DNA from: Candidatus Rifleibacteriota bacterium
GTDB taxonomy: Bacteria > Muiribacteriota > Ozemobacteria > Ozemobacterales > Ozemobacteraceae
DNA: 64,000 nt
Reading direction: 5' to 3'
NCBI GenBank assembly: GCA_012520995.1
Contig: JAAYNI010000067.1
Coordinates: forward strand, 62,001 to 126,000
The notes beneath the pieces are model-generated. The model worked only from the letters and a program-made list of their open reading frames with translations, ran no database searches and had not been told where the DNA came from. Both the position numbers and the translations under genes were made by a program. This document shows positions 17,901-53,480 of the stretch, piece after piece; the stretch's first letter is position 1, and each line of letters opens with the position of its first letter.

Positions 17901-17989
17901 CTAGTGTGGTGCCTGTATCAGATAAACATAAAGAGTTTATTGATTTGCTTGCATTGAATAGGCGATTTTTAGTTGAAACAAAGCGCTAG
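17901..17989 (+). repeat. MITE-like element family 1, copy C
   Basis: CTAG...CTAG flanks, TIR-like ends, similar to 24122-24213. Confidence 0.65.
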
Positions 17990-22142: not shown

Positions 22143-24125
22143 ATGTTGAAAAAAGCTTTTGAAATTACTGTTCCGCAACTTCAAAAAGAATGTGAGTGGT
22201 TGCTGACTAACGGAATTGGCGGATTTGCTTCTTCGACTGTTTCATGTGTGAATACGAGGCGTTATCACGGTTTGCTAGTAGCGGCTCAAAATCCGCCTGT
22301 TGAACGTCTTTTGCTGGTTTCTCAATTAGAAGAGGAGCTTATAATAGATGGCGTCTCCTACTTCCTGACAAGCGATGTCTCAGAAAAAGGTGTTTTGGAG
22401 CCTGAAAATATTTGTTGGTTAGAGAGCTTTGTGAAAGAACCTTTGCCTGAGTGGCATTACAGAATCAAAGACGTGCTCTTAATTAAAAGTCTTTGTATGC
22501 AGCATGGCTCAAATACAACTCTGGTAACGTACAGAATTTTTTCTAACACTTCTTCTGTTGATTTAAAGCTTACTCCTTATTTTTCTTGCAGAGATTTTCA
22601 TGGCAATACAGTTGAAAATATAGGTATTTCACAAGAATACTCAGAAAAAGACGGTGAATTGATTTTCAAGCCTTTGAGTAATGCACCTGAAATTTATATG
22701 CGTTTTGATTCTGGCTTTTTTCTGCCGAAGTTTGCTTGGAAAAGCCAATACTTGGCAATAGAAGAAGAAAGAGGATTGCCTGCAGCTGAAGATCTGTTTT
22801 CTTACGGTTCCTTAGAGATAAAAAACTATAAAGGCTTTGCTTCTATTGCTTTCTCTGATGCCTCTATTGTTGAATTTAATCCAGTTAATATGAAAAAGCA
22901 GGAAGAGTTACGACTTCATAAGGTTGCAAACTCTATTCCAAGCAACGATTTATTTCTCAAAAAGCTTTTACTTGCTGCAGATCAATTTATAGTAGCCCGA
23001 AAAAGCACAGGTGAAAAGACTGTTTTGGCGGGTTATCCTTGGTTTTCAGATTGGGGCAGGGACACTCTGATAGCTTTGCCTGGTCTTTCTTTGGTAAGCG
23101 GACGTTTTGATGATGCAGCTTCAATTCTGAAAACTTTTGCGGCTAATATCAAATATGGTCTTGTGCCAAACTGTTTCCCGGATAGAGGAGATGATGCACT
23201 CTATAACAGCGTGGATGCCTCTCTTTGGTTTTTCTTCGCTGTATATAAGTATCTGCAATATACAGATGATTACGAATTTGTCAGACGTAACCTTTACCAT
23301 GGAATGGAAGTTATTTTGGATTCTATGAGAGACGGTACTCTCTATGGAATTAAGGCGGATCCTGAAGATAATTTGCTGATGGCGGGTTATCCCGATACTC
23401 AGCTGACCTGGATGGACGTAAAAATCGACGGTTATGTTGTAACTCCGCGCAATGGAAAAGCTGTGGAAATTAATGCGCTTTGGTACAATGCTCTGAAAAT
23501 TTTTGCATTGTTGAAAGACAAGTTTGAGAGTGCCGGCAGGGAGTTTGAGATTTATGCTTCCTCAGTTAAGAGTTCATTTTTCGAAAAATTCTGGAATCCG
23601 AAGCTTGGCACTCTATATGATTATATAGCTCCTGATGGTAAAGCTAACACTGATTTCAGACCCAATCAAATTTATGCGGTCTATTTGCCATTTTCACTTT
23701 TGTCGCCGACGCAAGAAAAAAGCGTAGTTGATAAGGTGTTTGAGCGGCTGTATACGCCTAGAGGCTTAAGAAGTCTTGACAGAGACGATCCTGCTTATTG
23801 TCCTTTTTATCTTGGGGATAGACGTGAGCGTGACATGTCATATCATCAGGGTACTGTTTGGTCTCATTTGGCAGGTCCCTTTATTTCTTCTTACTTGAAA
23901 GTGAACGGCTATTCAGCAGATGCTCTTATGCAGGCTTCAGGTATGATCGAGTCTTTCCGGATTCACATGGAAAATGAGGCGTGCATTGGCGGCATTTCCG
24001 AGATCTTTGACGCGGAACCGCCTCATGCTCCAAGGGGCGCTTGTAATCAGGCATGGAGTGTAGGGGAAGTGCTTAGGGTTTATTATGAAGATATTAAAGG
24101 GCAGAGACCTACGCTTGTGATCTAG
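22143..24125 (+). CDS. Glycogen debranching enzyme (amylo-alpha-1,6-glucosidase)
   Basis: NGIGGFASSTVSCVNTRRYHGLL, WFSDWGRDTLIALPGL, AEPPHAPRGACNQAWSVGEVLR. Confidence 0.92.
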   Translation: MLKKAFEITVPQLQKECEWLLTNGIGGFASSTVSCVNTRRYHGLLVAAQNPPVERLLLVSQLEEELIIDGVSYFLTSDVSEKGVLEPENICWLESFVKEPLPEWHYRIKDVLLIKSLCMQHGSNTTLVTYRIFSNTSSVDLKLTPYFSCRDFHGNTVENIGISQEYSEKDGELIFKPLSNAPEIYMRFDSGFFLPKFAWKSQYLAIEEERGLPAAEDLFSYGSLEIKNYKGFASIAFSDASIVEFNPVNMKKQEELRLHKVANSIPSNDLFLKKLLLAADQFIVARKSTGEKTVLAGYPWFSDWGRDTLIALPGLSLVSGRFDDAASILKTFAANIKYGLVPNCFPDRGDDALYNSVDASLWFFFAVYKYLQYTDDYEFVRRNLYHGMEVILDSMRDGTLYGIKADPEDNLLMAGYPDTQLTWMDVKIDGYVVTPRNGKAVEINALWYNALKIFALLKDKFESAGREFEIYASSVKSSFFEKFWNPKLGTLYDYIAPDGKANTDFRPNQIYAVYLPFSLLSPTQEKSVVDKVFERLYTPRGLRSLDRDDPAYCPFYLGDRRERDMSYHQGTVWSHLAGPFISSYLKVNGYSADALMQASGMIESFRIHMENEACIGGISEIFDAEPPHAPRGACNQAWSVGEVLRVYYEDIKGQRPTLVI

Positions 24126-24213
24126 TGCGATTGTTGCATCAAATAAGCATGGAATAGTCCTTGTTGACTGCTTGTCATTGAATAGAGAAGTTTTAGTTGC
24201 AACAAAGCACTAG
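24122..24213 (+). repeat. MITE-like element family 1, copy A
   Basis: CTAGTGCGATTGTTGCATC...GTTGCAACAAAGCACTAG; ~90% similar by eye to the reverse complement of 48633-48719. Confidence 0.85.
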
Positions 24214-24473
24214 ATGTGCCGTTTAAGTTTTTGCGGCTTTTCCTTAAATTGTTCAGCCTGCTTGCTTTGTTGCCAAATGAGCACAGCTATATTCACTATG
24301 GCCATAAATATACAGAATATTGTGGCTTTGGCGCCTGTTCCATAGTAAGAATCGAATTTTCTTCCTATAATTAACCAAAAAACTATAACAATTGCTTTTG
24401 TAATGCCTAAGTTTGCTGCTTTCAAGTAGTTGAGACGCTCGGTGACTTGTTCTGTGCTTTTCTTCATTTTCAT
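24210..24473 (-). CDS. Small two-TM protein, possible AtpZ/AtpI-like
   Basis: GRKFDSYYGTGAKATIFCIFMAIVNIAVLIW resembles AtpZ; adjacent to the atp operon. Confidence 0.5.
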   Translation of the reverse strand: MKMKKSTEQVTERLNYLKAANLGITKAIVIVFWLIIGRKFDSYYGTGAKATIFCIFMAIVNIAVLIWQQSKQAEQFKEKPQKLKRHI

Positions 24474-24710
24474 CTCCTGTTGTGTTTATAGCTTAAATTT
24501 TTATTTTTAGCAATGAGTGTACAAGATTTTTAGCTGATTTCTGTGTTTTTTAACTTTTAAAGATATAGGCTTAAAATATTTTATTTTTTTCTGCTTCAAA
24601 CAATAGCAAAATCCTCTCAAAAAAGGAAATATAGCCACTTTTAGCTTGAATAAAAATTCAGTTGCCGGTATACTTGTAACTGTTGACGAATTATACTAAA
24701 GAGGACTAAT

Positions 24711-25385
24711 TTGGAAGCTATACACGCAAAGATACCCTACCTTTTTTCATGGATTCCTCTTCCTCCAGGCGTGCTAATGCCTTGGGTAGTCACAGCGGTA
24801 ATTTTCGCGGTTCTTTATTTTCTTTCCCGGAATCTGAAAATTACTGGTATTTCGACAGGCCAGGCAATACTAGAGACCCTCTACGAGTCTTTGCTCTCCT
24901 TTATAGAAGAGGTTGTGGGAGAAGAAGCGGCGGAGCATTTTCTGTTGCTGCTCTCAACAATTTTTGTTTATCTTTTATCTTCAGCCGCTATCGGCATGAT
25001 GCCAGCGATGAAGTCATCAATGCCTTTCTTGACCAGTTGTGCCACTTTGGCTCTGATAGTTTTTTTTGCTACTTTGTACACAGGTTTTTCGCGGCACGGC
25101 TTCGGATATTTAAAGCACTTCATAGGTGACCCTTGGTGGTTGTTCCCTCTAATGTTGCCTATAAACATAATAAGCGAGATTTCGCATCCTCTAAGTCTTA
25201 CTTTGCGACTTTTTGGCAATTTGGTGGGCGAAGAAACAATTGTGGGTGTCTTGCTTGTAATGGTCTTTCCCTTGCTTGTTCCAGTGCCTATGATGCTTTT
25301 AGGAGTGTTGACATCAGCACTTCAGGCTCTGGTTTTTACATTTCTCTCAGGAATATATTTAGTTTCAGCATATAACAAACCTTAA
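24711..25385 (+). CDS. atpB: F0F1 ATP synthase subunit a
   Basis: SHPLSLTLRLFGNLVGEE with essential Arg; TTG start. Confidence 0.93.
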   Translation: MEAIHAKIPYLFSWIPLPPGVLMPWVVTAVIFAVLYFLSRNLKITGISTGQAILETLYESLLSFIEEVVGEEAAEHFLLLLSTIFVYLLSSAAIGMMPAMKSSMPFLTSCATLALIVFFATLYTGFSRHGFGYLKHFIGDPWWLFPLMLPINIISEISHPLSLTLRLFGNLVGEETIVGVLLVMVFPLLVPVPMMLLGVLTSALQALVFTFLSGIYLVSAYNKP

Positions 25386-32906: not shown

Positions 32907-33089
32907 CTTCTTAAATGCAGATTCTAAGAAGCAGCGGATGGTAACCAGTTCAGTGGGCAAAAAAGATATTTTGTTCTATCTTTTTACGCTTTACATTCTA
33001 CATTTTACACTATAGAAACTCGCCGCTTGCCACTGGCTGTTCGTTGCCCTCTTTGCCAGCTATCCACTACCCACAACCTGCTGTTTTTA

Positions 33090-48420: not shown

Positions 48421-48636
48421 ATGACAGCAGCTTTAAACGCAATGACAGAAACTTCTCAAGCTATGGCAAATCCTACCTTGGAAGAACTTTCCGAGCTTTA
48501 TTCGGCACAACATAGAGAGTGCTGGCTTTGCGAAAAAATAGCGAGCAAGATTTCTGCCGGAAAAGAACTCTCCGAAGATGACACTTGGCATTTTTCTTCT
48601 TGCATACTCAGCTGGGAGCATCTGAATAACATCTAG
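48421..48636 (+). CDS. Hypothetical 71-aa protein
   Basis: ORF with upstream aggag; CWLCEK motif; ends ATC TAG inside repeat copy B. Confidence 0.5.
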   Translation: MTAALNAMTETSQAMANPTLEELSELYSAQHRECWLCEKIASKISAGKELSEDDTWHFSSCILSWEHLNNI

Positions 48637-48719
48637 TGCTGTGTTGCAAAAACTTTTCTGTTCAATGACAAGCAAGTCAACAAACTATTCATGGTTATTT
48701 GATGCAACAATCGCACTAG
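48633..48719 (-). repeat. MITE-like element family 1, copy B
   Basis: Reverse complement CTAGTGCGATTGTTGCATCAAATAAcCATG-AATAGT...CAcAGCACTAG matches copy A. Confidence 0.85.
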
Positions 48720-48910
48720 AGGAAGTAGGGCGTAGGGTGTCGGGGGTAGTGAAATTGTTTAGACTGTCAATGACAGCCAATAACTGCTTCTAGATGCTGA
48801 TAAGTAACTGAAACTTAGATGTTTCAAAAAAAAACCGATAATACTTAATATGCAATAAATTAAGAGAAACATTGCAAATTGCCCTTTCTACCCACTATCC
48901 ACCACCCGCA

Positions 48911-49042
48911 GAGGCTGTCCGAAAACTGCCAAAAAACTCAAAACTTGAAAAAGTCTATCTTCTGTGAGAGGCTTAAATAGAGAGTTTATAGAAATGCAAA
49001 ATCGCAAAAATCGGCGAAAAAAATGAGTTTTCGGACAGCCTC
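48911..49042 (+). repeat. TIR element family 2, complete copy
   Basis: 17-bp perfect terminal inverted repeats GAGGCTGTCCGAAAACT ... AGTTTTCGGACAGCCTC. Confidence 0.85.
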
Positions 49043-49107: not shown

Positions 49108-49170
49108 CCCGCCACTCGCCACTCATCACTGGCTGTTATGCTACTCCCTACGCCCTAACCCCTACTTCCT
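49108..49170. repeat. Degenerate 7-bp-period intergenic repeat
   Basis: cCGCCACTCGCCACTCATCACTGGCTGTTATGCTACTCCCTACGCCCTAACCCCTACTTCC; near-copy at 53356-53411. Confidence 0.7.
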
Positions 49171-53192: not shown

Positions 53193-53355
53193 CAGCAAAC
53201 TTTTTAAACCACGGAATACACAGAATACACTGACATGGGTTAAAAAATACGCCAAAACTTCGTTTTCGCTATGTTTTTACCCTTAAAAAACCTAGAGAAG
53301 TAGTGGCAAAGCAGTTATCAGCTTCAGTAATTAAGTTCTAAACATTCAACTTGCC

Positions 53356-53411
53356 ACCCGCCACTCATCACTGGCTGTTATGCTACTCCCTAACTCCTAA
53401 GCCCTACTCCC
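53356..53411. repeat. Degenerate 7-bp-period intergenic repeat, second copy
   Basis: CCCGCCACTCATCACTGGCTGTTATGCTACTCCCTAACTCC; one heptamer shorter than 49108-49170. Confidence 0.7.
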
Positions 53412-53480
53412 TTGGAGTTTTAGCCACTTGCCACAGGCTTTTTGTTGCCCTCTCTGTACACTGTCTGCGACCCACTGTTT

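Follow-up and report, generated by a model that had tools for sequence, protein, structure and literature searches.

A CTAG-bounded inverted-repeat element between the stop codons of two facing genes, and its repeat family in a compact genome

Results

In the window (the whole stretch of 64,000 nucleotides analyzed here), a glycogen debranching enzyme gene on the plus strand (22143-24125) faces a short gene on the minus strand (24210-24473). A MITE-like element of 92 bp, with no strand assigned, lies between them at 24122-24213 and consists of an 84-bp body plus both flanking copies of CTAG. The debranching enzyme is full length (660 aa), with clear matches to GDE_N and GDE_C in profile comparison, and its reading frame terminates ATC TAG on the left CTAG (24122-24125, plus strand), whose TAG is the stop codon. 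The opposite gene encodes a two-TM protein of 87 aa (87 codons), the family of which is uncertain, with sub-threshold profile matches only (LrgB, ATPase_gene1); its frame also terminates ATC TAG, on the minus-strand TAG of the right CTAG (24210-24213). The sequence-only reading had described a CTAG-bounded element with both facing genes stopping on its borders, and the sequence and the ORFs agree on this.

The letters from 24117 to 24218 read gtgat CTAG TGCGATTGTTGCATC...GTTGCAACAAAGCA CTAG atgtg. The element is an imperfect palindrome with CTAG at each end, in which the left arm CTAGTGCGATTGTTGCATCAAA (24122-24143, plus strand) pairs with the right arm CTAGTGCTTTGTTGCAACTAAAA (24191-24213, minus strand) over about 22 nt with one gap. 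This arm score was reached by 10 of 2,000 shuffles, and single-strand folding surpassed dinucleotide shuffles on both strands (z = -3.4 and -3.6). The ORF list shows no reading frame inside the element, and its flanks are unique sequence. A role as a bidirectional terminator was rejected, as no intrinsic-terminator-like site was found in 23900-24800.

When the 92-bp stretch was searched against its own genome (2.84 Mb in 101 contigs), 41 matches were obtained, 17 of them near-complete and the best reaching 95% over the whole 92 bp; the element is therefore not a product of chance. The two-arm pattern CTAGTGCNNTGTTGCA, allowing up to 2 mismatches, had 103 occurrences and its reversed control 3; the reversed controls of the end searches gave 3 and 0. 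About 90 related ends were readable, nearly all beginning CTAGTGCT(G/T)TGTTGCA(A/G)CTAAAA, and we collected 89 distinct family ends with their flanks, of which later counts use 87 or 88. These ends, of the CTAGTGCTKTGTTGCA type, share the conserved R-end represented by the right arm of the window copy, with the letters CTAG TGCT(G/T)TGTTGCA(A/G)CTAAAA(C/G)TT and the family consensus TGCT(G/T)TGTTGCAGCTAAAA.

The interior that follows the R-end differs among copies and is of several distinct kinds. In most copies, the sequence corresponding to our left arm is an internal module boundary (...CGCAC) adjoining tandem heptamers, for example TAGGGCG, TAGGGGG and TAGAGGG, or AGTGACG, AGTGATG and AGTGGCG, and this minisatellite, placed between a head and a tail, is missing from the copy at 24122-24213. 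Full copies carry a second end such as CTAGTAGACTGTTGCAGCTAAAAGTT or CTAGTGCTGTGTAACATCTAAAAGTT, and a paired-end scan returned 17 candidate complete elements of 69-564 bp; the second end is weak in two or three of these. The 92-bp sequence is thus the head module (A) of a family of mosaic elements, most of which are longer: the majority of A-module copies do not end on the left at the internal CTAG but belong to a longer element, and CTAG lies on both sides of two copies only, that of the window and a second solo A module (L004). Another short two-ended element (L054) measures 69 bp and has unique flanks. Within the window, a second A-module copy (48633-48719, minus strand) is the head of a longer composite that runs into heptamer repeats at 48720-48749, and a third related short element of about 89 bp (17901-17989, minus strand) has CTAG at both ends. 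The paired arms, the lack of an internal ORF and the many dispersed copies with unrelated flanks bear out the earlier description of a short, non-coding, non-autonomous element with terminal inverted repeats; its description as a 92-bp unit was too narrow, since most copies are longer on the left.

Several other repeats were noted. Families of tandem 7-bp repeats (CCCTACN and CACTCGC types) and of TTATCCACAGATTACACAGATT-type repeats occur at 48720-48749, 49111-49170, 53353-53412 and 33018-33041 and at many other loci of the genome, dispersed through intergenic DNA and often within mosaic elements. A separate, unrelated repeat is present at 1179-1291 and 48911-49023 (copies 71% identical); the latter copy lies in the repeat-rich stretch after the composite at 48633 and shows inverted ends of the GAGGCTGTCCGAAAACT type, so this repeat looks like another MITE. 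The assembly breaks inside near-identical family members of about 330 bp at contig ends C17, C23, C26, C30, C39, C51, C54, C66, C70, C77, C86 and C92, which suggests recent amplification of the family.

The 92-bp stretch had no match in 39 other genomes of the phylum, and a search for the inverted repeat in 24 genomes of the family and 40 of the phylum yielded a single case with 3 mismatches in one relative. Viral contigs, plasmids and phages gave no family match. The nearest genomes compared belong to other genera of the family, in which the debranching enzyme shows no more than 61% identity and different DNA follows the gene. Judged from these sequence searches, the repeat family appears to be new and lineage-restricted, though of a known type of element.

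We further analyzed how family ends relate to reading frames. Counting ORFs of 100 codons or more, 31 of 87 ends have one whose stop codon falls precisely on the terminal tetramer. The one ORF of this length that reads past the tetramer is a spurious overlapping frame at L123; no real gene enters an element in another frame. With ORFs of at least 60 codons, 35 of 88 ends coincide with a stop on the tetramer and 8 of 88 have the stop directly before it, and about a dozen further ends lie within 8 nt of a stop codon. The C-terminal end of the debranching enzyme falls on the same residue, or within 2, in 18 relatives of the family, which use TAA, TGA or TAG; its stop is therefore native and predates the element. 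Other neighboring proteins (TrmFO, guanine deaminase, PseB, a DnaJ-type protein, riboflavin kinase, a chromate transporter and HepPP synthase I) are full length to the C-terminus, judged by alignments that stop no more than a few positions short of the C-terminal end of the NCBIfam or Pfam model.

The arrangement with two facing genes is not confined to the window. Facing ORFs stop on the two flanking tetramers of five other complete elements (L049, L142, L017, L003 and L052), including a 128-codon ORF facing TilS at L049 and a CYTH protein gene facing GidB at L142; some of the shorter ORFs at these loci are unproven genes. At C92:208691, facing genes of 1,183 and 188 codons end on one common CTAG that contains no element, a natural unoccupied target. 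The repeated layout and this unoccupied site support the reconstructed pre-insertion site gtgatCTAGatgtg, and the window CTAG was very probably the stop of both facing genes before insertion. The earlier proposals that both genes once ended on one CTAG and that both frames came through the insertion intact are upheld by these loci, by the ancestral debranching enzyme stop and by each gene stopping on its own flanking CTAG, and the tally of family ends on stop-codon TAGs that the sequence-only reading called for stands at the 31 of 87 given above.

To place these counts in a genomic context, CTAG sites were surveyed in 420 kb of sequence from two large contigs, for which simple gene calling gave 332 genes and a coding share of 93%. 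Inside genes, 1 of 301 CTAGs carried an element end, and 10-14 of about 20 stop-codon CTAGs did so; other non-coding CTAGs were sometimes occupied. The contrast between stop codons and other sites reached p = 3e-5 in a crude, unmasked count. Once CTAGs inside or beside repeats recognized by self-comparison were masked, elements occupied 13 of 18 usable stop-codon CTAGs, compared with 23 of 52 at other non-coding sites (p = 0.056), and we do not claim a stop-codon preference.

CTAG is present at about 80% of all family ends, and the tetramer outside the ends is mostly CTAG even when the scan disregards it. Around 9 of the 17 candidate complete elements have CTAG at both ends and most others differ by single changes; in several, the terminal tetramers of the two sides are unlike. 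The variants TTAG, CTAA and TTAA may be later mutations. No longer direct repeat was found outside the CTAG in the candidate complete elements, and head-to-head neighboring elements have one CTAG in common, which is what insertion of one element into the CTAG at the border of its neighbor should produce. Position-specific variation of the tetramer does not separate a 4-bp from a 2-bp duplication: because CTAG is palindromic and nearly invariant, a duplication of CTAG and one of TA would give the same trace here and cannot be told apart.

Finally, we searched for a transposase using DDE_Tnp_1 (PF01609), DDE_Tnp_1_2 (PF13586), DDE_5 (PF13546), DDE_3 (PF13358), Y1 (PF01797) and rve (PF00665). No transposase with family ends was found in the assembly across these six families. 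PF01609 and PF13586 recovered one gene, IS5-like with other ends and the sole DDE_Tnp_1 gene of the assembly, and PF00665 recovered one gene without family ends, probably IS3-like from its two-ORF layout and rve domain. Genes with DDE_5, DDE_3 or Y1 domains, which would mark IS701-, IS630- and RAYT-type elements, respectively, are absent from the genome. A single IS5-like element with a transposase is located at L163 (G000:C93, about 4.4-5.3 kb), apparently TA-flanked, with the ends GGGTCTGTTGAACATT and GGGCCTGTTGAACATT; its GGGTCTGTTGAACATT ends do not match the family ends. IS5-family transposases generate 4-bp YTAR duplications, which was the ground for the attribution to IS5 in the sequence-only reading; that attribution is not supported, the only DDE_Tnp_1 gene having different ends, and the insertion sequence with matching inverted repeats that it proposed to look for was not found in the six families searched. 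Draft assemblies in many pieces often lack multicopy insertion sequences, and many contigs here end inside the most recent family members, of about 330 bp, so this absence is weak evidence. The partner transposase possibly lies on a missing contig or belongs to another family.

Discussion

Based on these data, the family is probably a lineage-restricted non-autonomous DNA transposon (MITE) that uses CTAG as its target, with a copy of CTAG left on each side of the insert; the copy studied here lies at a CTAG common to two facing stops. At this locus, the element would have entered a palindrome on which both genes ended, ATC TAG being read from either side, and each gene would have kept its own TAG stop because the tetramer was restored on both sides. 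A transposase, possibly lost or missing from the assembly, would act in trans. Insertions into CTAGs inside genes would be removed by selection, leaving those at stop codons and between genes.

The main question is whether the CTAG belonged to the target or arrived with the element. If CTAG were the outer tip of the inverted repeat, carried to any target, an element landing near a gene end would supply a new stop codon. The conservation of CTAG, equal to that of the inverted repeat with about 80% of ends carrying it, and the lack of a longer direct repeat outside it would fit such an origin, and its near-invariance means that a target duplication and a repeat tip are not separable by sequence alone. 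A carried-in tetramer, however, should be read through in two of three frames near gene ends, and the observed ratio is 31 to 1 in favor of the TAG frame. The debranching enzyme also stops at its ancestral codon, the other neighbors have full-length C-termini, head-to-head elements share a single CTAG, and two independent coincidences would be needed at each of six elements. The frame and ortholog evidence thus favors a target origin of CTAG, and we regard a carried-in tetramer as quite unlikely. The 4-bp CTAG duplication proposed earlier is accordingly retained as to a pre-existing CTAG target, and its 4-bp length is not, given that a TA duplication would leave the same sequence.

Within the MITE explanation, the 92-bp unit may have moved alone, with its inner end serving as the second inverted repeat, or it may be a remnant left by deletion between the internal and the distal CTAG of a longer composite. 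The two are not exclusive of the MITE reading. Most A modules extend past the internal CTAG, and two CTAGs offer 4 bp of homology for such a deletion; however, L054 is also short and two-ended with unique flanks, and L004 is a second solo A module. A deletion remnant is a plausible but not the favored origin of this copy. Spread by a Y1 (RAYT) transposase, as for REP or BIME repeats, would agree with the palindromic, extragenic and mosaic character of the family and its position near gene ends. The genome nevertheless has no Y1 transposase gene, control genomes being positive in the same search, and units of 69-564 bp with paired ends are unlike palindromes of 20-40 bp, so that this affiliation is highly improbable.

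Another question is whether stop codons or the 3' ends of genes are actively sought by the family, be it by way of a wider target motif, of transcription or of termination. The occupancy of 13 of 18 against 23 of 52, the crude p-value, the 8 ends directly after a stop codon and the dozen nearby point in this direction. However, the p-value rises to 0.056 after masking, the genome is compact, and selection against insertions in promoters and coding regions predicts the same bias. Tolerance is enough to account for the stop-codon pattern, and a real preference beyond it is possible but unproven; on balance, we think active seeking unlikely. A stronger version, in which the insertion machinery is directed to stop codons, gene ends are regular landing sites with the stop renewed at each landing, and most CTAG stops of the genome are element borders, seems to us slightly less probable still.

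The MITE reading implies that a transposon which duplicates its target can insert into a palindromic stop common to two facing genes and leave both intact, repeatedly in one genome. It also implies that gene ends can harbor such a parasite with no gene being disrupted, as at dozens of other genes here. Element borders account for about two thirds of the CTAG stop codons in the 420 kb, and these repeats therefore influence which stop codons are used and how long intergenic regions are in a compact genome. The family offers a natural test set for target tolerance versus target choice. Elements of this kind are known; the main point of interest is the frame-neutral use of stop codons, repeated across loci.

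Several known systems share parts of this picture. The short mobile repeats (SMR) of Haloquadratum walsbyi are similar in size (80-110 bp), prominent inverted repeats, high copy number and lack of a transposase, but they target palindromes of other mobile elements and no target duplication is reported (PMC3119063). The BrickBuilt MITE of Porphyromonas gingivalis resembles the long forms in having a head and a tail around an internal minisatellite and in being intergenic, whereas its repeat unit is 23 bp rather than 7 bp and the element is found 49-591 nt away from genes rather than on stop codons (PMC4596501). IS630 is reported to enter CTAG at its central TA (Tenzen and Ohtsubo 1991, as cited in PMC2170065); with its preference for CTAG it would likewise leave CTAG on each side, but it duplicates 2 bp (TA), and no DDE_3 transposase was found in this genome. 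The closest known system is MITEPsy1 of Pseudomonas syringae, an IS5-type element that inserts at CTAG or YTAA with a 4-nt duplication (PMC3189936). Its terminal sequence (GGAAGGTCTGAAAAAGCC) is unrelated to the family ends, and it has 6 copies, no internal tandem repeats and a parent insertion sequence, ISPsy2 (PMC3189936), for which no counterpart was found here. Like the family described here, MITEPsy1 is non-coding (100 nt), carries inverted repeats (18 nt) and uses CTAG as a target (PMC3189936).
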